From: an uncultured Roseivirga sp. | GTDB taxonomy: Bacteria > Bacteroidota > Bacteroidia > Cytophagales > Cyclobacteriaceae | Assembly (NCBI GenBank): GCA_947493005.1 | Contig: CANLOY010000003.1 | Span: forward strand, 124,001-188,000 | Direction: 5' to 3' | Length of the DNA stretch: 64,000 nt | Shown here: positions 31,724 through 50,568 of the stretch, piece by piece | Numbering within the stretch: the first letter of the stretch is position 1 | Layout of the letters: each line of letters opens with the position of its first letter | Made by a program: the position numbers and the translations under genes | The notes under the pieces: generated by a model | Database searches by the model: none | What the model saw: the letters and a program-made list of their open reading frames with translations, nothing else | What the model was told of the DNA's origin: nothing

Positions 31724-31856
31724 AAAAGGCTGTACCAAAAGGTTGTTTTGTCATTCCCGCAAGGGCGGGAATCTCTCTAATCAAGTACACAACCTATATT
31801 GAGATTCTCTATTTCTCGGGAATGACCATATTTTTTGACTTTTGGTACAGCCTCTT
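31724..31856. repeat. 133-bp palindromic element (MITE/REP-like)
   Basis: Outer arms GGCTGTACCAAAAG (31728-31741) and CTTTTGGTACAGCC (31839-31852) are perfect inverted repeats. Inside them GTCATTCCCG (31750-31759) pairs with CGGGAATGAC (31817-31826). The left inner arm also makes its own hairpin, ATTCCCGC / GCGGGAAT. The 3' side runs into Ts, so it can serve as terminator for the DinB gene. It shares the GTCATTC core with the other dispersed repeats but has its own longer ends. Confidence 0.8.
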
Positions 31857-38717: not shown

Positions 38718-38792
38718 CGTCATTCCTGCGAAGGCAGGAATCTCTAAGCCTATCAGGAGATTGCTTCGATCGTTGCACTCCTCGCAATGACG
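38718..38792. repeat. GTCATTC-family palindromic repeat, 75 bp
   Basis: Ends CGTCATT and AATGACG are inverted repeats. The left part folds as ATTCCTGC / GCAGGAAT with a GAAG loop; compared with ATTCCCGC / GCGGGAAT at 31752-31771 the stem shows a compensatory C-G to T-A change, so the fold and not just the sequence is kept. The right end touches the next gene (start 38794). Confidence 0.75.
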
Positions 38793-39861: not shown

Positions 39862-39864
39862 TAA

Positions 39865-39956
39865 CGTCATTCTAAGGGAGGAACGACCGAGAGAATCTCT
39901 CAATATATTAGACAGACTCTTTCGGTTTCTCATGCTTCGAAACACTCAGAGTGACG
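39865..39956. repeat. GTCATTC...GAGTGAC palindromic repeat, 92 bp
   Basis: Ends CGTCATTCTAAG and CTCAGAGTGACG are inverted with two mismatches. The inner stretch GGAACGACCGAGAGAATCT and the following TCAATATATTAGACAGACT are nearly identical to the copy at 40941-41045, showing recent common origin. Confidence 0.75.
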
Positions 39957-39963
39957 GTAACAT

Positions 39964-39991
39964 GTCATTCTAAGCAAGGCGAAAGAATCTG
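39964..39991. repeat. solo left arm of the GTCATTC repeat
   Basis: GTCATTCTAAGCAAGGCGAA then AGAATCTG: one arm without the matching right end, 62 bp before the first GIY-YIG gene. Confidence 0.6.
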
Positions 39992-40052
39992 CTAGTAGAT
40001 ATTACTATATCTTCAAAAACCTGCTATAATTGATTGTACAATACACAAAACT

Positions 40053-40352
40053 ATGGAACGTGGAGGCTCAGTCTACATTTTAACCAATAAGAATAAAACC
40101 ACTCTATACGTAGGTGTTACTTCTGACTTATCCTCCAGAATTAGACAGCACTTAAACAAAGAATTCCCGCATAGCTTCTCCGCTCGATATAACTTGACTC
40201 ATTTAATCTATATGGAACACTTTTCAAGCATTGAAGAAGCCATCGAAAGAGAGAAGAAGATTAAGAGCAAAACAAGAGTTAACAAGGAAAAACTTATAAC
40301 CAAACATAACCCTAATTGGAATGACTTAGCAAATGACGTTTTGAACTGGTAA
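40053..40352 (+). CDS. small GIY-YIG nuclease
   Basis: A 99-residue single-domain GIY-YIG protein of the YhbQ/UPF0213 type: 'GSVYILTNKNKTTLYVGVTS' (VYI and YVG for GIY and YIG), the catalytic Arg in 'DLSSRIRQH', the metal-binding Glu in 'EEAIEREKKIK', and the Asn in 'HNPNWNDL'. It nicks or cuts DNA in principle; the cellular role of these small proteins is unknown. It is flanked within 65 bp on the left and 25 bp on the right by GTCATTC-family palindromes, the same setting as the second copy at 50154. Confidence 0.9.
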   Translation: MERGGSVYILTNKNKTTLYVGVTSDLSSRIRQHLNKEFPHSFSARYNLTHLIYMEHFSSIEEAIEREKKIKSKTRVNKEKLITKHNPNWNDLANDVLNW

Positions 40353-40374
40353 ACATAGCCAACCCTAACTAAAA

Positions 40375-40483
40375 CGTCATTCTGAAACTTGAGGTACGAA
40401 AGTGAAAGAATCCTTTGCTAATACATTCAGACTCTCCCAAAGCATCGAGACCGTTTCCTATGCTTCGAAACACTCAGAGTGAC
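40375..40483. repeat. GTCATTC...GAGTGAC palindromic repeat, 109 bp
   Basis: Begins CGTCATTCTGAAACTTGAGG and ends CTTCGAAACACTCAGAGTGAC, the same right end as the copy at 39865. It starts 23 bp after the GIY-YIG stop codon. Confidence 0.75.
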
Positions 40484-40561
40484 AATTAAGCAAATAGAAT
40501 TTAAATACATTGAAGAAGTCGAAGTTTTTAGTAAACTTCAATCAAACATAAACCAGCACCC

Positions 40562-40933
40562 ATGAAACTAGGCGCATTTTCAATCAGCTTAACAGTTAAA
40601 GACATTCATGTATCCAAAGCCTTTTATGAGCAATTAGGTTTTAGTGTATTTGCAGGAGATATTGAGAGGAACTATCTCATTATGAAAAATGAAGATAAGA
40701 TCATTGGCCTTTTTCAAGGTATGTTCGAGAAGAATATTCTCACTTTTAACCCAGGTTGGGACCAGGATGCCAATACACTGGAATCTTATGATGATGTAAG
40801 AAAGATTCAGTCTGAGCTCAAAACCAATGGGATCAAACTGGATAGAGAAGCAGATGAGACAACTACAGGTCCAGCCAGTATAGTTCTAACCGACCCTGAT
40901 GGTAATCATATTCTGATAGATCAGCACATCTAG
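40562..40933 (+). CDS. VOC-superfamily (glyoxalase-like) protein
   Basis: A 123-residue protein with two beta-alpha-beta-beta-beta modules: '[25 protein letters not shown]' at the start (beginning shown) and '[22 protein letters not shown]' at the end. The glyoxalase/bleomycin-resistance fold is clear, but the metal-ligand pattern is not complete enough to name a substrate. The gene lies alone between two GTCATTC repeats (7 bp from the right one), so it may have been carried or insulated by them. Confidence 0.87.
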
Positions 40934-40940
40934 GATTAAT

Positions 40941-41045
40941 CGTCATTCTGAGGAAGGAACGACCGAAAGAATCTTTCAATATATTAGACAGACTCTCCCG
41001 AAGCATCGGGACGGTTTCTGATTCTTCGAAACTCTCAGAGTGACG
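40941..41045. repeat. GTCATTC...GAGTGAC palindromic repeat, 105 bp
   Basis: Ends CGTCATTCTGAG and CTCAGAGTGACG are inverted repeats with one mismatch in twelve. It contains an extra internal hairpin CCCGAAGCATCGGG. It shares a long inner block with the copy at 39865-39956. Confidence 0.78.
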
Positions 41046-41189
41046 TCATGCCACCACCTTTTTTTAACCTCAACTAAAGAATCGCTTAGGTTGTTTTCTC
41101 TTTGGGTATCCATGGACTTCAATAGGCTGAATAAGTTCTCACTGAAATCGAAATATGCATGTAGTACTTAATTACTAAATTTAAGTGCA

Positions 41190-42038
41190 ATGCCTGAAAA
41201 CGCTCATAGCTTTGATCCAGACCATTCTAAACTAGAGATAAGAGTCAGAAAAGTATCTCATAAGAATTCTTATGACTATACTTCAATTCACAGACATGAG
41301 TACTTCGAGTTCATTCTCTTTGAGTCGGGCAATAGTGGAGAGCAAATCATTGATTTCAAAGAATATACCATTCAGAAAAACTCGCTTTTTATCGTATGCC
41401 CTAATCAAGTTCATTTAATGAACCGTGTACCATCTGAGAATGGAGTTTTGGTTCAGTTCACAAGAGATTTCCTTACGCTTTGCATCGCTCCTGTTAAGAT
41501 TGAATACTTGATTTCATTAAGGTCTTCGTCCAAAACTGTATTGACTAATGAACAATTTCAGAAGGTCAAGCTATCGATTGAGCAAATCAAAAATGAGTTA
41601 AACCTTGATTCAGAATACAAATATGAAAGAGTTAAACATTTGTTTGGTTTTTTCTTTTTCGAGATTCTTGACCTCCTCTCCTCACCAAGCCAATTAGCAA
41701 ACAACAATAGCTCAGCATTAGATTTCTTAATTGCTGTGGAAAGTAATTTACGAGAAACACGAAATGTAAAAGATCTTGCCGATAAGATTGGTGTGCCTGT
41801 CAATAAGCTAACTCAGGAAGTGAAGGTTCAATTCAATAAAACTCCCTTACAACTGATACACGATGCTACATTAGTAGAAATTAAAAGGCTTTTGGTAGTT
41901 GAGAAGCTGTCTCATAAAGAAATAGCATTCAAACTTAACTTTGATAGTCAAAGCTCATATTCAAGGTTCATCAAGCAAAAGACTTCTTTAACCCCTGGTG
42001 AACTCAAAGACAGCGTGATGAAAATTGCACAGCAATAA
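41190..42038 (+). CDS. AraC-family transcriptional regulator
   Basis: A 282-residue protein with an N-terminal cupin-like sensor ('IHRHEYFEFILFESG', 'SLFIVCPNQVHLM') and a C-terminal double helix-turn-helix ('NVKDLADKIGVPVNKLTQEV' and 'SHKEIAFKLNFDSQSSYSRF'), followed by the usual 'TPGELK' end. It lies 70 bp before the exported dioxygenase-like gene on the same strand and may control it or the LysE gene. Confidence 0.9.
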   Translation: MPENAHSFDPDHSKLEIRVRKVSHKNSYDYTSIHRHEYFEFILFESGNSGEQIIDFKEYTIQKNSLFIVCPNQVHLMNRVPSENGVLVQFTRDFLTLCIAPVKIEYLISLRSSSKTVLTNEQFQKVKLSIEQIKNELNLDSEYKYERVKHLFGFFFFEILDLLSSPSQLANNNSSALDFLIAVESNLRETRNVKDLADKIGVPVNKLTQEVKVQFNKTPLQLIHDATLVEIKRLLVVEKLSHKEIAFKLNFDSQSSYSRFIKQKTSLTPGELKDSVMKIAQQ

Positions 42039-42107
42039 GTGCAAAATGCTAAATACATATCGCATTAACTGCCATAGTTTTGATCCTGAAAACTTAAAAT
42101 AAACGTT

Positions 42108-42773
42108 ATGGATCGAAAAAAATTCATCAAAAGAAGTGCCCTGGGTCTAGGTGTACTTCCACTAGCATCTTTGAATGGAATTTTCAATGATGAGCAAACA
42201 ACATGTAAAACCACTCCTGAAGAAATAGCAGGACCTTTCCCTAATAAAAGGCCCAAAGACTACATTACTGAAAATATCGTAGGAGATCGTGAGGGAATTC
42301 CTCTGGTAATCAACCTTACGGTGCAAAACGTAAAGAATGATTGCAAGGCATTGGAAGGAGTCTTTGTCGATATCTGGCAGTGTGATTCAAAAGGAAACTA
42401 TTCTGAATACAGACATCAATTAGATGGGAACTTCACGGGAGCAAACTTCCTTCGAGGCAGACAAACCACCGACCAACAAGGGAATGTCTCTTTTGTAAGC
42501 ATCTATCCAGGTTGGTATCCGGGCCGCTCTCCTCACCTACACATTGAAGTCCTGAGTAAAAAAGGGAAGTCAATTCTGGTTACACAGGTCGCCTTTCCTG
42601 ACAATGTATCTAAAAAAGTTTACCAGACATCGCATTACAAAGGAGTACATGACACCTCCAATCGCTCCGATTATGAATTCAGGGACAGCCTTAAGGATAA
42701 TTTACCTGATACTGTAGATGGAAATATTCAAGATGGGTATGTATTGAACAAAATCATCAAAGTAAAACCATAG
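42108..42773 (+). CDS. exported intradiol ring-cleavage dioxygenase-like protein
   Basis: A 221-residue protein with a Tat-like N-terminus (MDRKKFIKRSALGLGVLPLA). The dioxygenase fold is shown by 'EEIAGPFPNKRP', 'GVFVDIWQCDSKGNYSEY' and 'SIYPGWYPGRSPHLHIEV', which keep the Tyr, Tyr, His, His iron ligands of protocatechuate 3,4-dioxygenase relatives. Secreted members of this group are found in many bacteria without a catechol pathway, and none is present here, so the substrate is unknown. A product of redox protein export is likely given the twin-basic signal. Confidence 0.85.
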   Translation: MDRKKFIKRSALGLGVLPLASLNGIFNDEQTTCKTTPEEIAGPFPNKRPKDYITENIVGDREGIPLVINLTVQNVKNDCKALEGVFVDIWQCDSKGNYSEYRHQLDGNFTGANFLRGRQTTDQQGNVSFVSIYPGWYPGRSPHLHIEVLSKKGKSILVTQVAFPDNVSKKVYQTSHYKGVHDTSNRSDYEFRDSLKDNLPDTVDGNIQDGYVLNKIIKVKP

Positions 42774-42792
42774 TTCATTACAGCACATAAAT

Positions 42793-43422
42793 ATGGAAAC
42801 AGGCTTATTACTATCATTTTTAGGAGCATCTGTTATCCTGTCAATAATGCCAGGGCCGGACAATATTTTTGTTCTTACAGAAAGTCTTACCAAAGGCCAA
42901 AGAAATGGAATTGCCATTTCTATTGGACTCGGCTCTGGTGTTCTTGTTCATACAATAGCTGCTGCGACAGGACTTTCTTTAATTGTTCAAAGTTCAGCAT
43001 TGGCGTTTTCAATTATAAAGTATCTGGGTGCAGCCTACTTGTTTTACCTTGCTTATCAGGCACTAAAGGATAAAGAGCAGAACATAAATTTCAAAGTAGC
43101 GCAGCAACCAAAGCATCAGGGAACTTTCTTTCTGATTAGAAAAGGCTTTCTTATGAATGTCCTGAATCCTAAGGTTTCATTGTTCTTCATTGCATTCCTT
43201 CCCCAGTTTGTAAGCCCCAATGGACTAAGCATCAAGCTTCAAATGATTATACTGGGAGTTTTATTCATGATTCAGGCTATCATGATTTTCAGCTTAATAT
43301 CAGTCTTATCTGGCAAGCTATCTAAGTATATCAATAACAAGCGTTTCTGGAAAACCGCCAAATGGAGCAAAGTTGGGGTATTATCTATCTTAGGTATTAC
43401 ATTGGCCTTGTCTGAAAAATAA
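42793..43422 (+). CDS. LysE-family amino-acid/metabolite exporter
   Basis: A 209-residue protein with six hydrophobic segments and the family N-terminus 'SVILSIMPGPDNIFVLTESL' plus 'GFLMNVLNPKVSLFFIAFLPQF'. RhtB/LysE exporters move amino acids or related small molecules out of the cell. It is 19 bp after the dioxygenase-like gene and probably co-transcribed with it, and is convergent with sufU. Confidence 0.92.
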   Translation: METGLLLSFLGASVILSIMPGPDNIFVLTESLTKGQRNGIAISIGLGSGVLVHTIAAATGLSLIVQSSALAFSIIKYLGAAYLFYLAYQALKDKEQNINFKVAQQPKHQGTFFLIRKGFLMNVLNPKVSLFFIAFLPQFVSPNGLSIKLQMIILGVLFMIQAIMIFSLISVLSGKLSKYINNKRFWKTAKWSKVGVLSILGITLALSEK

Positions 43423-43443
43423 GAACCCAGAGACGTAACTTTA

Positions 43444-43872
43444 TCAAATTATAGTCTTCAACTCCCCCCAACTCAAGGTAGCACAGGTTTTTCTTTCCGG
43501 AAATTCACGAGCAGCAGCGAAGGCAAGTAAATCCTCATTTTCAGTTAGAGATTCAGGGGATTTGGTAGAAGCTTCGTTAACCAGCTCAAAGAACATTTCA
43601 ACCAGAGGCTTGATCTCTTCCAGTGATTTCCCCTGTATACTTTTAGACAAAACAACGGTTGAAGCCTTTGAAATAGCACAGCCCATACCTTCAAAAGAAG
43701 CTTTCTCTACCCTCTCCTCCACTATCTTCAGATATAATGTGTACTTATCACCGCACATGGGATTATAAGCTTCCAATATATGTGTAGCATCAGTCAACTT
43801 ACCTAGATGAGTTTCATCTCTGGCACTGGCAAGAATATGAGACTGGTAAAGAGCCTTTATTCGATCGTTCAT
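43444..43872 (-). CDS. sufU: SufU-type Fe-S assembly / sulfur-transfer protein
   Basis: A 142-residue protein with the three conserved cysteines of SufU/IscU ('NPMCGDKYTLY', 'GMGCAISKAS', 'KTCATLSW') and the Asp after the first. In Gram-positive bacteria SufU is a zinc protein that accepts sulfur from SufS. Its start overlaps the sufS stop (ATGA). Being last in a run of Moco genes it may serve both Fe-S and cofactor sulfur supply. Confidence 0.92.
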   Translation of the reverse strand: MNDRIKALYQSHILASARDETHLGKLTDATHILEAYNPMCGDKYTLYLKIVEERVEKASFEGMGCAISKASTVVLSKSIQGKSLEEIKPLVEMFFELVNEASTKSPESLTENEDLLAFAAAREFPERKTCATLSWGELKTII

Positions 43873-45089
43873 AAAAAGAACTCGTTTGCTTCATCTAATG
43901 CATCTATTAAAGCATCTATATCCGATTTGGTATTGTAAATGGCAAAAGATGCTCTGGCCGTTGCAGTCAATTTTAGCCTATCCATTAGAGGTTGTGCACA
44001 ATGATGTCCAGCACGAATGCATATTCCTTTCTCATTCAAAAAAGTACCTAAATCATGCGGATGAATGCCATCCATGACAAAAGATACTACTGGCGCTCTA
44101 TTTTCAGTTGGCCCTATAATTCGAAGCCCTTTAATAGGACTTAACCCTTCAATTGCATAAACAGTAAGCTCATGGGCATAGGCTTCGATTTGATCATACC
44201 CGACACTATTGACAAAGTCAATTGCAGCTCCTAAACCAAAAACTCCTGCAATATTTGGAGTACCAGCCTCATGTTTACTCGGAGAATCCTGAAAAGTGGA
44301 ATGATCAACAGTTACTCTTTTAACAATTCCACCTCCCAAACTCAATGGCTGCATACTTTCTAATAAATGTCTTTTACCATAAAGCACTCCAATACCGGTA
44401 GGCCCGTAAAGTTTATGTCCTGAAAAAACAAGGAAGTCACATTCTAACTCACTTACATTAACAGCGTCATGAGCAAGACTCTGAGCTGCATCTATAAATA
44501 CCGGGATATTATAAGCTTTAGCCTTAGAAACAACTTGTTTTAGGTCGTTCTTAATCCCAAGGGCATTGGAAATACCTGTAATAGCCACCAGTTTCACATT
44601 TTCATTCAGCATGCTATCATAAGCCTCATAATCCAGCTCACCAGAATCAAGCATTGGGATTACTTTAAGTTCAGCTTCCTTCTCTTCACATATCTGCTGC
44701 CATGGCAATAAGTTAGCATGATGCTCCATTTCAGAGATTATCACTTCATCTCCTTTGTTGAGCTGAGGCCTAAGAAAAGAATTAGCTACTTTGTTGATAC
44801 CATCAGTTGTCCCAAAAGTAAACACTACCTCTTCCTGATGTTTAGCTCCAATCAAGTGCTGAACCTTTAATCTAATCTTATTAAAAGCTCGTGTTGTTTC
44901 AGAAGCAGGCCAATAAGAAGCTCTCCCTACAGTACTGTAACCTTTCGTGTAGAAATCGGCTATCGCGTCTACTACCGACTGTGGTTTATGACAGGTAGCT
45001 GCGTTATCCAAATAAACCAGTCTTTGCCCTTGCGGAGTTCTCTGCTTAAGAATTGGAAATTGTTGCTTTATGGCTTCTTGATCAAACAT
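43869..45089 (-). CDS. sufS: cysteine desulfurase SufS
   Basis: A 406-residue class V PLP enzyme with the PLP lysine in 'FLVFSGHKLYGPTGIGVLYG' (start of the motif given) and the persulfide cysteine in 'CIRAGHHCAQPLM', the SufS/CsdA arrangement. It takes sulfur from cysteine. It is followed by sufU with a 4-bp overlap and preceded by moaE (75-bp gap), so it is positioned to feed sulfur to the rhodanese domain of the MoeB-like protein and on to MoaD. Confidence 0.94.
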   Translation of the reverse strand: MFDQEAIKQQFPILKQRTPQGQRLVYLDNAATCHKPQSVVDAIADFYTKGYSTVGRASYWPASETTRAFNKIRLKVQHLIGAKHQEEVVFTFGTTDGINKVANSFLRPQLNKGDEVIISEMEHHANLLPWQQICEEKEAELKVIPMLDSGELDYEAYDSMLNENVKLVAITGISNALGIKNDLKQVVSKAKAYNIPVFIDAAQSLAHDAVNVSELECDFLVFSGHKLYGPTGIGVLYGKRHLLESMQPLSLGGGIVKRVTVDHSTFQDSPSKHEAGTPNIAGVFGLGAAIDFVNSVGYDQIEAYAHELTVYAIEGLSPIKGLRIIGPTENRAPVVSFVMDGIHPHDLGTFLNEKGICIRAGHHCAQPLMDRLKLTATARASFAIYNTKSDIDALIDALDEANEFFL

Positions 45090-45164
45090 AATCCCCCTCA
45101 GTCCTTTGGAAAGCTCCCCTAAGGGAGCAAATTGTTAATTTAAAATTCGTCATTTATAATTCCA

Positions 45165-45581
45165 TTAAGGATGAGCTGACACCCAAACCTCGCCATCTTC
45201 GAACACTTCTTTTTTCCAGATCGGCACCGTTTCCTTGAGCGTATCAATCGCATATTGGCATGCCTCAAAGGCTTCTTTTCTATGTGCAGATGAACATGCA
45301 ATTACCACAGCTTCTTCTTCGATGGGCACCAAACCCAAGCGGTGATGAATTACCATTTTATAAAGACTCCAGCGTTCAGTTGCCTCATCAGCAATCTTTT
45401 GCATTTCCTTCAATGCCATCTTTTCATAAGACTCAAACTCAAGATGCTTTACCGTTTTACCTTTCGTCTGATTCCGAACTGTACCAACAAATACTACAAT
45501 TCCTCCTGCACCCGGGTAAGTAACAGTCTCTGTACAGGCTTTTGAGTCTAAACGATCATTTGTAATGAATATATCTTCCAT
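45165..45581 (-). CDS. moaE: molybdopterin synthase catalytic subunit MoaE
   Basis: With the ATG at 45581 the protein has 138 residues (MEDIFITNDRLDSKAC...). A GTG four codons earlier is possible but overlaps moaD more. Family motifs: 'GAGGIVVFVGTVRNQTKGKTV', 'LEFESYEKMA', 'HRLGLVPIEEEAVVIACSSAHR' (conserved parts) and the catalytic lysines in 'PIWKKEVFEDGEVWV'. With MoaD it adds two sulfurs to the precursor to form molybdopterin. Its start is within 2 bp of the moaD stop. Confidence 0.95.
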   Translation of the reverse strand: MEDIFITNDRLDSKACTETVTYPGAGGIVVFVGTVRNQTKGKTVKHLEFESYEKMALKEMQKIADEATERWSLYKMVIHHRLGLVPIEEEAVVIACSSAHRKEAFEACQYAIDTLKETVPIWKKEVFEDGEVWVSAHP

Positions 45582-45582
45582 A

Positions 45583-45825
45583 TCAGCCACCACTCACCGG
45601 TGGTATCAAAACCACCTCATCTTTTGGATTCAAAACGTAATCATCCTGCACATAGTCGGCATTTACCGCAAACCTGAGCGAAGTAAGTTTAGAAAAGTCT
45701 GGATACTGCTCAGAGAGCTTCTTTCTGGCTTCTCCTACTGTGAAATTATCCGACAAGGAAATACTCACTTGCTTGCCCTTTATGATGTCCTTGGCTATAC
45801 CAAATGCAACAACTTCTATTTCCAT
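45583..45825 (-). CDS. moaD: molybdopterin synthase sulfur carrier MoaD
   Basis: An 80-residue ubiquitin-fold protein ending in the required Gly-Gly ('LIPPVSGG'), with 'VEVVAFGIAKDIIKG' and 'RFAVNADYVQDDYVLNPKDEV' (latter abbreviated) as in the family. Its C-terminal glycine is adenylated by the MoeB-like protein encoded 3 bp upstream and converted to a thiocarboxylate. Confidence 0.94.
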   Translation of the reverse strand: MEIEVVAFGIAKDIIKGKQVSISLSDNFTVGEARKKLSEQYPDFSKLTSLRFAVNADYVQDDYVLNPKDEVVLIPPVSGG

Positions 45826-45828
45826 ACG

Positions 45829-46953
45829 CTAATAAACTTCCAATGTTGAATCAATTTCCTTCTGCCAGGCCAAAATACCTCCTTTGAGATTAATTAAGTT
45901 ATCAAAGCCTTCATTTTCTAAGATATCAATAGCACTCTGACTCCTGCCACCTGCCTTGCACATTACCACAACTTCCCTATCTCTTGGTATTTCGGATTGT
46001 CTTTCCACGACCTGATTCAGTGGGATCAATTGTCCACCAATATTTGCAATATCATACTCATAATCTTCTCTTACATCAAGGATATGAATTGTTTTTTTAG
46101 ACATCAGTTCCTTTAAATCCACTACACTGATTTCCTTAGTTGCTAAATCAGGTTTATCAACTCCAGCACAAAAGGTCTCGTAATCGATAAGTTCTTTAAC
46201 TGTAGGATTGGAGCCAGATAACGGATTGTCTTCACTGGACTTAATATTCAGCGTTCGTGTTGACATATCCAAAGCATCAAAGAGCAATAACTTACCTGAA
46301 AGTGGAGTTCCAATTCCAGTTATCACTTTTATCGCTTCATTGCACTGCATTGAACCTATAATTCCAGGAAGTACCCCCAGCACTCCTCCCTCACTGCAAC
46401 TAGGTACCATATCAGGCGGTGGTGGTGTTGGAAAAACATCTCTATAGTTGGGGCCACCTCGATAGTTGAAAACCGAAACCTGACCTTCAAAGCGAAAGAT
46501 CGCACCGTAGATTAAAGTTTTTTTCAAAAAATAACAGGCATCATTTACCAGATATCTTGTTGGTAAGTTGTCCGAACCATCTACCACCAGATCAAATTTC
46601 CCTATGGTTTCCAATGCATTAGCAGAAGTAATGGGTTCGTTAAACACTTCTATGTCAACCTCAGTGTTTAATTGCGTCAATCTTCGGCTTGCTGCATTTG
46701 CTTTTTGTTCTCCTATCTCATTACTATCAAACAACACTTGCCGATGTAAATTGGACAAATTGACCTCATCGAAATCAATAATGCCGATTCTTCCAACTCC
46801 CGCTGCTGTCAGGTATAACAAATTCGGTGCTCCTAATCCACCAGCACCAATAACAAGAACAGAAGAGTTCTTTAGCTTCTCCTGACCTTCAATGCCAAAA
46901 TCCGGCAAAATAATCTGCCTGTTATACCTGATAAGTTCTTCTTTACTCAGCAT
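45829..46953 (-). CDS. moeB: MoeB-like adenylyltransferase fused to rhodanese
   Basis: A 374-residue E1-like enzyme: 'RYNRQIILPDFGIEGQEKL', ATP-binding 'VIGAGGLGAPNLLYL', 'DFDEVNLSNLHRQ' and 'VPSCSEGGVLGVLPGI', then a rhodanese domain (about 275-374) with the persulfide cysteine in 'VVMCKAGGRS'. The zinc-binding C-x2-C pairs seen in E. coli MoeB are not visible. It adenylates MoaD, and the rhodanese part can hand over sulfur, as in MOCS3/MoeZ proteins. The sufS gene in the same operon is a natural sulfur donor. Confidence 0.92.
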   Translation of the reverse strand: MLSKEELIRYNRQIILPDFGIEGQEKLKNSSVLVIGAGGLGAPNLLYLTAAGVGRIGIIDFDEVNLSNLHRQVLFDSNEIGEQKANAASRRLTQLNTEVDIEVFNEPITSANALETIGKFDLVVDGSDNLPTRYLVNDACYFLKKTLIYGAIFRFEGQVSVFNYRGGPNYRDVFPTPPPPDMVPSCSEGGVLGVLPGIIGSMQCNEAIKVITGIGTPLSGKLLLFDALDMSTRTLNIKSSEDNPLSGSNPTVKELIDYETFCAGVDKPDLATKEISVVDLKELMSKKTIHILDVREDYEYDIANIGGQLIPLNQVVERQSEIPRDREVVVMCKAGGRSQSAIDILENEGFDNLINLKGGILAWQKEIDSTLEVY

Positions 46954-46967
46954 ATGTGATCGACCTA

Positions 46968-47576
46968 TTAATCCGTTCTATGGTGTTTTAACTTAAATTT
47001 AAGCACATCTTCACGAGTATCAATATCCTTGATGAAACGTTCATTGTCCACATTTAGGTTCAACAATTTGTCATTGTATTTTTTGACTACACCTGAACAA
47101 CCATTTGGTTTGTTATGGTTAAGGATGTCATCATAATATGCTGCTCCGAATATCACTGGATTAGCTCTTTTTCCTTTATAAAAAGGAACCAGAATAGAGT
47201 CATTTTTTCCTCTTTTTTTAAACTCCTGAATCATCATATTGTAATCCTGAGTCTTTAACCATGGCATATCTCCAAGACAAATCATAATGGCATCATATTT
47301 TAAAAGCGATGCAACGCCCACCTGAATTGACGAGGTCATTCCTTGCTTGAAATTCTGATTATGTTCAACTCGGTCTTCAGCGTTGAGTTTTATGGTTCTT
47401 TCAACCCCCTCTTTGTCTCTTCCTGTAACTATAACAACTTCATTTATAGAACTTTCAGACAACTCATAATAAGTTTTACTTATAACAGAATGACTATCTA
47501 TGTTAAATAGTAGCTTATTCGGACCTCCCATTCTTTCCGATAGGCCCGCTGCCAAAAGTACTGCTCCTATTGTCAT
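46968..47576 (-). CDS. mocA: MocA-like molybdenum cofactor nucleotidyltransferase
   Basis: With ATG 47576 (AAGGA upstream) the protein is 202 residues and begins MTIGAVLLAAGLSERMGGPN, the canonical nucleotidyltransferase start; a TTG at 47594 would add six residues. 'IMICLGDMPWL' holds the metal-binding Asp and 'KRANPVIFGAAYY' is typical of MocA/MobA-like proteins. MocA makes the cytosine dinucleotide form of the cofactor used by xanthine dehydrogenase-family enzymes, which agrees with XdhC in the same locus. First gene of the minus-strand Moco operon. Confidence 0.88.
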   Translation of the reverse strand: MTIGAVLLAAGLSERMGGPNKLLFNIDSHSVISKTYYELSESSINEVVIVTGRDKEGVERTIKLNAEDRVEHNQNFKQGMTSSIQVGVASLLKYDAIMICLGDMPWLKTQDYNMMIQEFKKRGKNDSILVPFYKGKRANPVIFGAAYYDDILNHNKPNGCSGVVKKYNDKLLNLNVDNERFIKDIDTREDVLKFKLKHHRTD

Positions 47577-47662
47577 ATCGTTAAATTCCTTCAAGGGTGC
47601 CTTTATCTATTTCGAATTGACTAATTTATGAGAAAATAAACAGCATTAAACACCACAAACAA

Positions 47663-49930
47663 ATGGATTTATCAAACATATTCAATGCAGACAATGTAGA
47701 TGAATTGAAGTCTGGGAAAGCACTCAATGACCCTACACTTCTTAATTCTCCTGTTAAGCTATCTGCTTCTGCAGATTTTGACTTTACTACTGGTGGGTTC
47801 ACCTTCAATATAGTGCCCGAAACAAGTCTGACAATCTCTCTTTTCAATAACTCAAACGAGACAGACCCTGATGGACTTATAAATGCCAGTGATCCCATAA
47901 TTGACCTTGCTCCTTCTACTGAGGCTTATTTGAAATACGCCCTCAATGTTGGAGCAACAGGTACAGGAAGTGGAGCGAGCGGTGCGCTTTCATTAGATTT
48001 AGGCGTTTCAAAAATTTTCAGTACAGGGCTATACAAAAAACATACCCCGACCGACAAAGTTCCGCTGACAATAGTTGGGGACATATCAAGTTTCCTTTCA
48101 ATTTTTGACTGGGCCAACGTTCAGTCTCTTAACCCAGGTGATGCACTTTTTACCAGTGCAAAAGGTAAGCTGCAAGGTAAACTCAGTTTTTCATGGTCTG
48201 ATATATTCTCTCAAAGTATGTCTGCACTTACTTCGCTCTTACCAGTTGATCTAACACTGGACTTGAAGTTGAGTCCTTCTTTATCTGTCGGTTTCAGTGC
48301 CTCACTAGAAGACAATTATCTATGTGCCATGAAACGAGTGAATGATAATTCCTTCCTTGTGACTATCAGTAAGGCAAAAAGCTCAACGGTAAGCGGACAA
48401 ATTGGTGCCAGTGTAGGTATTGAATTTGCAGACCCTACTGAGCTGGAAAGTCAGCTCAATGGCATTGTAAATCAGATTATCTCTTCGGTAACTAACTATG
48501 CTGGTAATGTGGCGGATCTGATTCAAAAGTTTCAGGATAATAACCTATCGGATGCTGAAAAGAAGGTATTGAACGGCATTTTAAAGAGACTTAAGTTAGA
48601 TGCTCTTGCCAGCCCGGTAACTTCATTGGATAACCTGATTACTAAAATCACTGAAAAAGCAAAAACGGTTACCCAAACCATTGCTAAAGCAAGTGCTTCC
48701 GTTTCTTTTGAATATGAGTATTCCAGAATAAGTGAAAACAGTGAATTACTATCTGTACAGATAGATCAGACAATTCTTGAAAGTCTGCACCCAAAACTTG
48801 TTGGCTTTAAAACCACAGATTTGCTTCAAGAGGTTAAAGCTAAAACACCCGGAATTACACTAAACAATTACCTGAATCAAAAGTCTCTGACTGTGAATAA
48901 GACCTGGGGCTTTGGACTATCCCTACTTGGTAAACCTGTATTCTCTGGTAAGGAAATAAGAAAAACTGTATCAGCAACTCAGACCAATATTGATGGACAA
49001 CAACAAAGTTCGTTGGATCAGATTATTGGTTATCAACGTGAGTGGATGGGAGAATCTACAGACTGGGTAACCAACTTCAATGCAAAAATGCCCGGATTTT
49101 CGGTGACACAGACACCAACTCTAAATGAGTTTGATTTTAGCTTCTATGTACAGATGACTTCTGGCATGAAAGTGAGAAAAGAAAAGCACTTAATGCAATT
49201 ACTGGACTTGGGAGTAATGTGGGGTGCAATTAACGAAAGTGAAGAGCCTCGACTAACAGATAAGTATCTACCAGAATTCAAAGGAGAAGTAGTAACGGCA
49301 GAGGCAAAATTAACTTTTAAGCCTACAGCTATGTTGGCCCTTATTCAACAGTTAGGCCAGTTGGGGTGGAACAACGCCACCATTGGGCTTCTTTCCAAGG
49401 CTATGGCATCTTCGATGAGTTACTGGAATAACTTTCCGCTAAGACAGTCAGTACTAAAAAGAACCGCTGCTTATACTCCAGTTTGGCAAAACTATCTTGC
49501 TAACCCCAATCAACCATTGTCCAATTTTGCTGCTATTGCTAAACAGTCTCTGAGCAATTATGGAGGCGTATCTCCAATGCTAATAGACAAAGAAGGGTCG
49601 GCAGGAAATTCACCAGCTGATGATTATGCTGCCAATGTAATGTACCAAAACCCTAACATGGCCAGTGATGCCCAAGCATTTATCAATGGATTAACCCAGC
49701 TTAAAGATGGTATTGCGAGCAGCGAGGCGTTTGATCAGAATTTCAGTTCTGCTTATTCTAATATGAAGCAGTTCTTCAATCAGTCTATGTACGTAAGAAC
49801 TCTGGGGTGCCTGTTAAATGAATTCTCTATGGTAAACACAGGAATAGATGGTGAAGTGGAAAGGGTCTTCACTTTAAGCTGGGGTGAAGGTACAAATGCA
49901 GAAACAGTAAGTCTGGCTTCTAAGAACTAG
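47663..49930 (+). CDS. large protein of unknown function, 755 aa
   Basis: A 755-residue protein without signal peptide or TM segment. The first 230 residues are Ser/Thr/Gly-rich beta strands ('VKLSASADFDFTTGGFTFNI', 'GATGTGSGASGALSLDLGVS', 'KLQGKLSFSWSDIF', 'LKLSPSLSVGFSASL'). A helical middle follows (about 260-350), then more beta ('ASASVSFEYEYSRI'), and a helical C-terminal third rich in Asn/Gln/Met. I recognise no family. It is transcribed away from the mocA operon and alone, with a palindromic repeat 12 bp after its stop codon. The beta-rich part could be a self-assembling or binding module (inference). Confidence 0.75.
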   Translation: MDLSNIFNADNVDELKSGKALNDPTLLNSPVKLSASADFDFTTGGFTFNIVPETSLTISLFNNSNETDPDGLINASDPIIDLAPSTEAYLKYALNVGATGTGSGASGALSLDLGVSKIFSTGLYKKHTPTDKVPLTIVGDISSFLSIFDWANVQSLNPGDALFTSAKGKLQGKLSFSWSDIFSQSMSALTSLLPVDLTLDLKLSPSLSVGFSASLEDNYLCAMKRVNDNSFLVTISKAKSSTVSGQIGASVGIEFADPTELESQLNGIVNQIISSVTNYAGNVADLIQKFQDNNLSDAEKKVLNGILKRLKLDALASPVTSLDNLITKITEKAKTVTQTIAKASASVSFEYEYSRISENSELLSVQIDQTILESLHPKLVGFKTTDLLQEVKAKTPGITLNNYLNQKSLTVNKTWGFGLSLLGKPVFSGKEIRKTVSATQTNIDGQQQSSLDQIIGYQREWMGESTDWVTNFNAKMPGFSVTQTPTLNEFDFSFYVQMTSGMKVRKEKHLMQLLDLGVMWGAINESEEPRLTDKYLPEFKGEVVTAEAKLTFKPTAMLALIQQLGQLGWNNATIGLLSKAMASSMSYWNNFPLRQSVLKRTAAYTPVWQNYLANPNQPLSNFAAIAKQSLSNYGGVSPMLIDKEGSAGNSPADDYAANVMYQNPNMASDAQAFINGLTQLKDGIASSEAFDQNFSSAYSNMKQFFNQSMYVRTLGCLLNEFSMVNTGIDGEVERVFTLSWGEGTNAETVSLASKN

Positions 49931-49942
49931 ACATGGTAATAC

Positions 49943-50031
49943 CGTCACTCCAAGGTGAGCTTGCTTGTTGGCAAATTGAAAGAATATGTAATTATAACAG
50001 ACTCTTTCGGTCGTTCCTCTCTCAGAGTGAC
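49943..50031. repeat. GTCATTC-family palindromic repeat, 89 bp
   Basis: Begins CGTCACTCCAAGG and ends TCTCTCAGAGTGAC; the ends are inverted repeats and the right half (ACAGACTCTTTCGG) matches the copies near 40 kb. It follows the 755-aa gene and precedes the second GIY-YIG gene. Confidence 0.7.
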
Positions 50032-50085
50032 TGTATATTTTTGGTATGACATTCTAACAAAGGTTAGTAAAAACTCCATCGTTTA

Positions 50086-50115
50086 GTCATTCCGACCAAA
50101 GGAGGAATCCTCACC
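50086..50115. repeat. solo GTCATTC arm before the second GIY-YIG gene
   Basis: GTCATTCCGACC, then AGGAGGAATCCTCACC: ATTCC and GGAAT form a small hairpin. Located 38 bp before the GIY-YIG start, as the solo arm at 39964 is before the first one. Confidence 0.6.
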
Positions 50116-50153
50116 ATTATCAAGTGGGTTTGTTGATTCACAATTAATAGAAT

Positions 50154-50483
50154 ATGTCTGGATATCACGTATATATTTTAACCAATACAACCAAAAGGGT
50201 ACTCTATACTGGCGTAACAAATGACTTGAGTACAAGGGTTATAGAACATTATCTTGAAAGGGGAAAGAGTAGAACTTTTACAGGTAGATACTATTGTTAT
50301 TATCTATTGCACTATGAATTTCATCATACACCCTCAGGAGCTATTGAAAGAGAAAAAGAAATCAAAGGTTGGAGACGTGAGAAAAAAGAAGCTTTGATTA
50401 ATAGTAAAAACCCCAATTGGGATTTCCTTAATTCCGAGGTTACAACTTGGCCTCCCGAATGTGGGATTGGTAAGAGATTTTAG
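50154..50483 (+). CDS. small GIY-YIG nuclease, second copy
   Basis: A 109-residue GIY-YIG protein with 'YHVYILTNTTKRVLYTGVTN' (VYI and YTG), the catalytic Arg region 'DLSTRVIEH', Glu in 'GAIEREKEIKGW' and 'KNPNWDFL'. It aligns along its whole length with the protein at 40053 but many positions differ, so they are old paralogs and not a recent duplication. It too is bracketed by GTCATTC-type repeats (solo arm 38 bp before, inverted pair starting 2 bp after the stop). Confidence 0.9.
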   Translation: MSGYHVYILTNTTKRVLYTGVTNDLSTRVIEHYLERGKSRTFTGRYYCYYLLHYEFHHTPSGAIEREKEIKGWRREKKEALINSKNPNWDFLNSEVTTWPPECGIGKRF

Positions 50484-50485
50484 AA

Positions 50486-50568
50486 ATGGTTAAGATCCCT
50501 CATTCTTCGGGATGACTTACTAATAAGGTTAATCAAGTCATTCCGACCTTAGAAGGAATCTTAACCAT
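50486..50568. repeat. 83-bp inverted repeat after the second GIY-YIG gene
   Basis: Left arm begins ATGGTTAAGATCCCT and ends GGGATGACTT; right arm begins AAGTCATTCC and ends AATCTTAACCAT. The arms are about 33 bp each and complementary with a few mismatches, giving a long hairpin with small internal hairpins in each arm. It starts 2 bp beyond the stop codon. Confidence 0.75.

Follow-up and report, generated by a model that had tools for sequence, protein, structure and literature searches.

The window, that is, the whole 64,000-nt stretch of DNA analysed here (G000:C3:124001-188000), belongs to a genome of 4.88 Mb in 24 contigs and carries two small GIY-YIG nuclease genes on its forward strand. 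Both proteins match PF01541 and are diverged paralogs (44% identity). The genes, and the hairpins around each of them, lie where an initial annotation of this DNA had put them. The features discussed below are the following.

31750..31826: gene-less palindrome of the same kind as those flanking the genes; its left arm passes the strict detector.
38719..38791: gene-less dimer with two different stems (ATTCC, ATTGC); strict detector.
39862..40561: interval of 700 bp between the BNR-like gene and the glyoxalase gene, around copy 1.
39865..39955: REP dimer left of copy 1, arms 39866-39897 (+) and 39915-39955 (-); strict detector; fold -27.0 kcal/mol.
39964..39989 (+): outward arm closest to the start of copy 1; strict detector.
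40053..40352 (+): GIY-YIG nuclease gene, copy 1; 99 aa; PF01541 E 2.7e-17; predicted fold with pLDDT 94.2.
40376..40483: REP dimer 23 bp past the stop codon of copy 1; its arms are 40376-40412 (+) and, facing outward, 40430-40483 (-); strict detector.
40942..41044: additional REP dimer, 3′ of the glyoxalase gene; 93% likeness to the initial 56 nt of the 39865 dimer.
49943..50031: palindrome on the left of copy 2, of which one arm only, the right one at 50000-50031 (-), is accepted by the detector.
50086..50109 (+): outward arm on the left side of copy 2; strict detector.
50154..50483 (+): GIY-YIG nuclease gene, copy 2; 109 aa; PF01541 E 8.8e-13.
50494..50516 (-): right outward arm of copy 2; wider detector.
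50537..50560 (+): further arm past copy 2, head inward relative to 50494-50516; strict detector.

The palindromes of 80-110 bp that had been described around the genes are present, but they are made of two arms placed head to head, and the recurring unit is the single arm (GTC, a hairpin and C; 23-54 nt here). The whole palindrome was therefore rejected as the unit, because single arms recur with a fixed tag and stem. Arms in the window have the form GTC-ATTxx...xxAAT-C, with stem letters that vary from arm to arm and complementarity that is kept. At copy 2, the arm on the left that had been called solitary does exist, but together with the arm after the stop codon it forms one outward-facing pair around the gene; the palindrome reported at 50486-50568 does not end in GTCATTC as claimed, and both its heads face inward.

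The strict detector found 13 arms in the window, against a mean of 0.73 and a maximum of 3 in 30 order-2 Markov shuffles, and the wider detector found 17 against 2.8 expected (maximum 8 in 40 shuffles). When the strict detector was slightly widened and applied to the genome of the window, five of its seven small GIY-YIG genes had 17 arms between them at distances of up to 300 bp, compared with 11 arms in 320 kb of DNA lacking such genes (16 of 20 sampled 20-kb stretches). The other two small GIY-YIG genes (L007 and L008) had no arm according to the detector; L007 (G000:C9, ∼19.2-19.7 kb) is of another type and, by reading, lies 3′ of DNA resembling the 3′-end of a tRNA/tmRNA gene. A strict one-stem pattern gave no match in the same genome. 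Eight of 19 CC-type arms, on contigs C1, C3, C5, C6 and C7, share one and the same 24-mer (stem ATTCCCGA, loop GAAA) and form a homogeneous REP family; this stem is absent from the arms of all five GIY-YIG genes that bear arms here.

The pairing of gene and arms was then examined across bacteria using a profile (A1) made from eight arm-bearing proteins, with which 84,980 species were scanned at the protein level only; 571 hits were confirmed, and the 80 best of them were analysed further. Arms were present within 250 bp upstream of 57 of these 80 relatives, downstream of 57 and on both sides of 49, a proportion (49/80) that describes this subfamily, since A1 was built from proteins with arms and only the top-scoring hits were retained. 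Arm density reached 4.02 per kb in the flanks of the best 80 of 571, compared with 0.16 per kb elsewhere in the same loci (98 arms in 622 kb). With the wider detector, 70 of these best 80 of 571 had an arm, 55 had arms on both sides and 49 had them on both sides with the heads outward, whereas the corresponding counts for 353 other ORFs on the same contigs were 55, 7 and 3, the last three all in a single contig (L124). The enrichment of palindromes at such genes that the initial annotation had set as its test is thus borne out. The remaining 10 of the best 80 of 571 had no detected arm, and inspection by eye showed degenerate arms in a few of them and none in the others; among relatives, the gene of Rhizobium tumorigenes has no detected arm and that of Novosphingobium aromaticivorans has a variant arm, with a stem beginning GCCCC, that the detector misses. 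The median length of the 49 outward-armed units is 395 bp; they represent 15 named class- or phylum-level groups, with six of the loci left unassigned, the groups being assigned from record titles (L113 was treated as Alpha in the cross-class comparison below, which its title does not support, and left out of the group count). The same protein subfamily is found in every group with arm pairs.

Within Bacteroidota, leaving out the genome of the window, 28 of 29 subfamily loci had an arm, 25 on both sides and 17 in outward orientation. By contrast, among 27 GIY-YIG loci outside the subfamily (30 minus L040, L053 and L056, which had arms and joined the profile), four had an arm and none had arms on both sides, outward or otherwise. 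GIY-YIG genes in general were consequently rejected as the partner of the arms. Tyrosine transposases (Y1_Tnp) were likewise rejected for the genomes tested: at 26 of 30 loci in genomes chosen for their arms (L341, L342 and L343 were dropped as weak matches and L351 as too close to a contig end), one had an arm and none had an arm pair in any orientation. At the level of whole genomes (198 Bacteroidota), a strong enzyme hit (E 1e-25 or better) was present in 38 of 45 arm-rich Bacteroidota genomes and in 45 of 153 others (Fisher p 5e-11, kinship ignored), where arm-rich means at least three CC-type arms, only this stem type being counted and both cut-offs being our own; seven of the 45 arm-rich genomes had no strong hit. 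Equal abundance of the hairpins in genomes lacking the gene, which would have spoken against the proposed link, was thus not observed. One protein query against phages as possible carriers gave no match at 1e-8.

The hairpins themselves have a published counterpart. In Di Nocera et al. (2013, PMC3733652), CGTC REPs are described as having a CGTC or TGTC tag, a stem of 8-9 bp beginning with AT, a loop of 4-5 nt and a tail that is mostly CCA, and as occurring mostly as dimers; dRS3 of Neisseria and RPE-6 of Rickettsia belong to CGTC-1, and RPE-4 to CGTC-4. We compared these features in a tag-blind manner, taking all perfect hairpins within 150 bp on each side of the GIY-YIG genes (best 80 of 571). 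Of the 132 flank hairpins, 61 carried one of the tags (34 CGTC, 27 TGTC), against 29 of 583 readings on both strands far away (18 CGTC, 11 TGTC), and GTAG was absent from the eight commonest tags in the flanks. The 61 tagged hairpins, from 38 loci, had stems of 8 bp in 51 cases and of 9 bp in four, a stem beginning with AT in 54, a loop of 4-5 nt in 57 and a CCA tail in 33. Judged by sequence, the hairpins flanking the 80 relatives are therefore members of the published CGTC REPs and not a new family, and the longer, bulged hairpins of the window are a variant of them. The same authors conclude that CGTC REPs "apparently lack a dedicated transposase" and also consider their mobilisation by other transposases; here, in contrast, one GIY-YIG subfamily is associated with them. 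The earlier idea of a REP-like family with a different enzyme thus stands as regards the association, but it applies to one GIY-YIG subfamily only, and the family had already been described. A chromosome-sized Neisseria gonorrhoeae record contains a relative 57% identical to the Rhizobium query lying among CGTC-1-like arms. That record (2.17 Mb) and those of Aeromonas caviae (4.9 Mb) and Sinorhizobium meliloti (3.7 Mb) are filed as plasmids despite their chromosomal size.

Arms and enzyme also go together in sequence. In 41 strict outward pairs, left and right stems agreed in 7.29 of 8 letters, against 4.76 when partners were shuffled (maximum 5.51 in 2000), and 25 of the 41 pairs matched perfectly, against 3.65 in shuffles (maximum 11). 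Stem identity tracked protein identity (r 0.51 over 70 loci, 0/5000 permutations), and did so across classes and phyla as well (1737 pairs, r 0.50, permutation maximum 0.22, 0/5000). Stem likeness was barely higher within a class than between classes (0.60 vs 0.55; the same-class set also holds pairs with unassigned loci), and arms more than 1 kb away from a gene resembled the resident arm with a score of 0.745 against 0.527 (29 loci, 72 arms, 0/5000). In these comparisons of sequence, stems follow the enzyme more than the host. Joint travel of gene and arms would be expected to produce such covariation, which taken alone is no proof of recognition.

Near-identical copies of the unit are dispersed within genomes. 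An Erythrobacteraceae genome (G203) contains two copies 45 kb apart that are 95% identical; their likeness ends at GACG on the right side and continues 49 bp beyond the arm on the left. Among the matches listed for this genus, 14 longer than 300 bp cover the element (query 963-1327), of which 12 start within 959-963 and nine end within 1327-1329, so that 12/14 starts and 9/14 ends fall within 4 nt of the tags. Another genome (G345) has seven copies of 371 bp, from CGTC to GACG, at different loci and 94.9-98.1% identical. They have ∼35 nt of right flank in common and a left flank of one of two types; farther out, matches between the flanks are confined to stretches of 33-52 bp. Since likeness passes the left arm by 49 bp in G203 and ∼35 nt of right flank are shared in G345, the boundaries do not always coincide with the tags. 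A frame of at least 87 aa, counted from an internal ATG, was present in only four of the seven G345 copies and was shorter in the others; several of these copies look decayed. The local context of the seven full copies also contains a solo gene-less palindrome running from tag to tag (L300, G345:C23), as expected from a deletion between arms.

Sites that contain the unit in one genome were found empty in relatives. In the orthologous region of a genome of the same genus (G353), the BNR-like and glyoxalase genes that flank copy 1 are 67 bp apart, with neither an arm nor a GIY-YIG gene between them; beyond this empty interval, arms do occur some hundreds of bp past the glyoxalase gene. Also on its downstream side, at least six CTGA-type arms in the same direction form an array (G353:C5, L363 2664-3426), near the position of the window dimer at 40942-41044. 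Five congeners carry relatives of copy 1 (69-79% identity) at a total of eight other positions, and at six of these the arms are of the CTGA or CTAA type, as at copy 1. In Azospirillum lipoferum 4B (L250 2376-2884), a REP dimer, the gene and a second REP dimer lie between sufB and sufC and split the suf operon, and both gene and arms are absent between sufB and sufC in three congener records (95-96% identical over matched DNA; a fourth Azospirillum record, L258, was left out of this comparison). Similarly, three Shinella records without the gene also lack the arms at a site where another record has both. The case for copy 2 is weaker: its right neighbour is present in three genomes of the same genus without GIY-YIG gene or arms in the 3.5-4 kb examined, and its left neighbour is not conserved. 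No target-site duplication was found at the sites compared, where the flanks are too diverged. Taken by the traits of insertion sequences, then, the unit has terminal inverted repeats (the matched arms) and ends that, among the matches listed, fall mostly at the tags, with the exceptions given above, and it varies in presence at orthologous sites in G353, Azospirillum and Shinella.

The copy 1 protein is a bare GIY-YIG domain (99 aa; pLDDT of the model 94.2). The only solved fold matching the model at E 0.001 or better was UPF0213 (1zg2), followed by chains of the branched-DNA nuclease Slx1 (E 0.017). The active-site residues R, H, E and N, which we take to be catalytic, are kept in 79 or 80 of the 80 proteins (best 80 of 571). 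These residues were not part of the search pattern, whereas the Y..G.T..L stretch was and is conserved by construction.

A close parallel is the RAYT (TnpA-REP) system with its GTAG REPs, or REPtrons, which also consists of one small nuclease gene between tagged hairpins, with gene-less copies elsewhere in the genome. However, the RAYT enzyme is a HUH tyrosine transposase (PF01797) and its tag is GTAG, whereas the window genes are PF01541, the tag is CGTC and joining by the host would be needed. The GIY-YIG unit thus works like a RAYT REPtron but is no member of that group, as it differs in both defining features. IS200/IS605 elements share the very small size, hairpin ends and single nuclease gene, but their HUH transposase is missing from the GIY-YIG unit and the Y1_Tnp genes of arm-bearing genomes lack arm pairs (0/26). 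GIY-YIG homing endonucleases such as I-TevI and the Seg proteins share the fold, and selfish spread is plausible for both; the present proteins nonetheless score at most 24 bits against a cut-off of 56 for group I intron endonucleases, and their units have hairpin ends and empty sites free of arms. As for UPF0213 (YhbQ-type) proteins, they provide the closest solved structure, 1zg2, but arm pairs are lacking at all 27 GIY-YIG loci that fall outside the arm-bearing subfamily.

We consider it likely that the GIY-YIG gene and its flanking hairpins form a mobile unit in which the nuclease is the partner enzyme of the REPs. This reading draws on the association of gene and arms, their orientation and matching, the boundaries at tags, the joint absence from orthologous sites, the dispersed near-identical copies and the covariation of hairpin and enzyme, all established at the level of sequence. 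Both window genes, so read, are copies of a putative minimal mobile element in which a GIY-YIG gene of ∼95-110 codons lies between outward-facing GTC-tagged hairpins, and the gene-less hairpin pairs are probably non-autonomous derivatives of it, that is, CGTC REPs. The likeness of distant arms to the resident arm bears on whether the gene-less dimers may be compared with MITEs, which have the ends of an autonomous element but not its gene. A role of the nuclease in recognising, cutting or spreading the hairpins is what we infer. In the mechanism we propose, the nuclease would bind the CGTC foot and the stem as a single-stranded or cruciform hairpin and nick there; the segment would then be copied, moved or joined through host replication and repair, and gene-less REP dimers would move in trans. 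GIY-YIG nucleases hydrolyse DNA without a covalent intermediate, and for this reason the protein, in contrast to a RAYT, should be unable to join strands by itself, and joining by the host would be a necessary step. We give this route of nicking and host repair, taken by itself, an even chance.

The main rival is homing into existing repeats, in which the nuclease would cut palindromes or repeats that were already there and repair from an element-bearing copy would insert the gene between their arms, so that the gene lives on REPs without spreading them. Free-standing GIY-YIG homing enzymes are known, and the seven G345 copies, with their ∼35 nt of common right flank and a short left flank of either of two kinds, could be taken as lying in a dispersed local repeat, in the context of which the gene-less palindrome L300 is also found. 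Yet no arm is left where the gene is missing, either at the site of copy 1 in G353 or in the three Azospirillum and three Shinella records, and these sites therefore retain no REP that could have served as target; we regard homing as improbable. A somewhat smaller probability goes to the gene being a passenger, for example a repair or defence gene carried as cargo while another transposase acts on the arms in trans. In its favour, Di Nocera et al. (PMC3733652) also consider other transposases as mobilisers of CGTC REPs. On the other hand, the GIY-YIG gene is the sole gene between the arms of compact units and belongs to one subfamily in 15 class- or phylum-level groups, tyrosine transposases have no arm pair (0/26), and stem sequence tracks the enzyme across classes.

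Chance proximity, with CGTC REPs or terminators being simply common intergenic hairpins near genes, would fit the 98 arms found in 622 kb outside the flanks. It is very improbable given the 4.02 arms per kb in flanks against 0.16 elsewhere, the outward and pairwise-matched arms both upstream and downstream of the gene, the scarcity of arm pairs at the control ORFs, other GIY-YIG genes and tyrosine transposases, and the joint absence of gene and arms from orthologous sites.

Returning to the mobile unit, CGTC REPs have been described in many bacteria and their defining paper leaves open which enzyme, if any, spreads them. The GIY-YIG nuclease is a strong candidate for the missing enzyme of this known class of hairpin repeats, and one that is concrete and testable. 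A broader proposal, to which we give about equal weight for and against, is that the unit represents a new class of transposable element of ∼370-400 bp, whose sole gene encodes a single-domain GIY-YIG nuclease that would recognise its own CGTC-hairpin ends and drive their spread while the host joins the strands; it would supply the mobiliser that CGTC REPs have lacked in the 15 class- or phylum-level groups, as an independent invention similar to RAYT-REP but of unrelated chemistry. If so, mobile hairpin repeats evolved on two or more occasions, each time with an unrelated nuclease, and many of the genes whose annotation reads only 'GIY-YIG nuclease family protein' or 'excinuclease ABC subunit C' encode enzymes of selfish elements. 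We know of no other transposon-like element in bacteria whose sole enzyme is a hydrolytic GIY-YIG nuclease. In the open literature searched (5.39 million papers, with preprints and most subscription papers outside), none of the matches listed ties GIY-YIG to REPs. In its matching passages, PMC9465073 names GIY-YIG and 'extragenic palindrom' only among Moraxella genes and references; PMC6006769 has CGTC repeats solely in its reference list, and a term search of the RepRanger paper (2025) returned no word beginning 'GIY'.

Several loci encountered in the surveys have features of their own. On plasmid p1 of Planktothrix agardhii (L251), an arm-bearing relative has an MmeI-type gene on one side and drmA, part of a DISARM locus, on the other. 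G132:C1:1733881-1734727 contains a tandem triplication: three GIY-YIG matches from a different subfamily, equal in score, are spaced exactly 317 bp apart. Finally, many of the 80 Rhizobium genomes searched contain, at 86-98% identity, a repeat of ∼104 bp that lies beside the gene in L130 (∼2705-2809) and is reminiscent of the RIME1 element.
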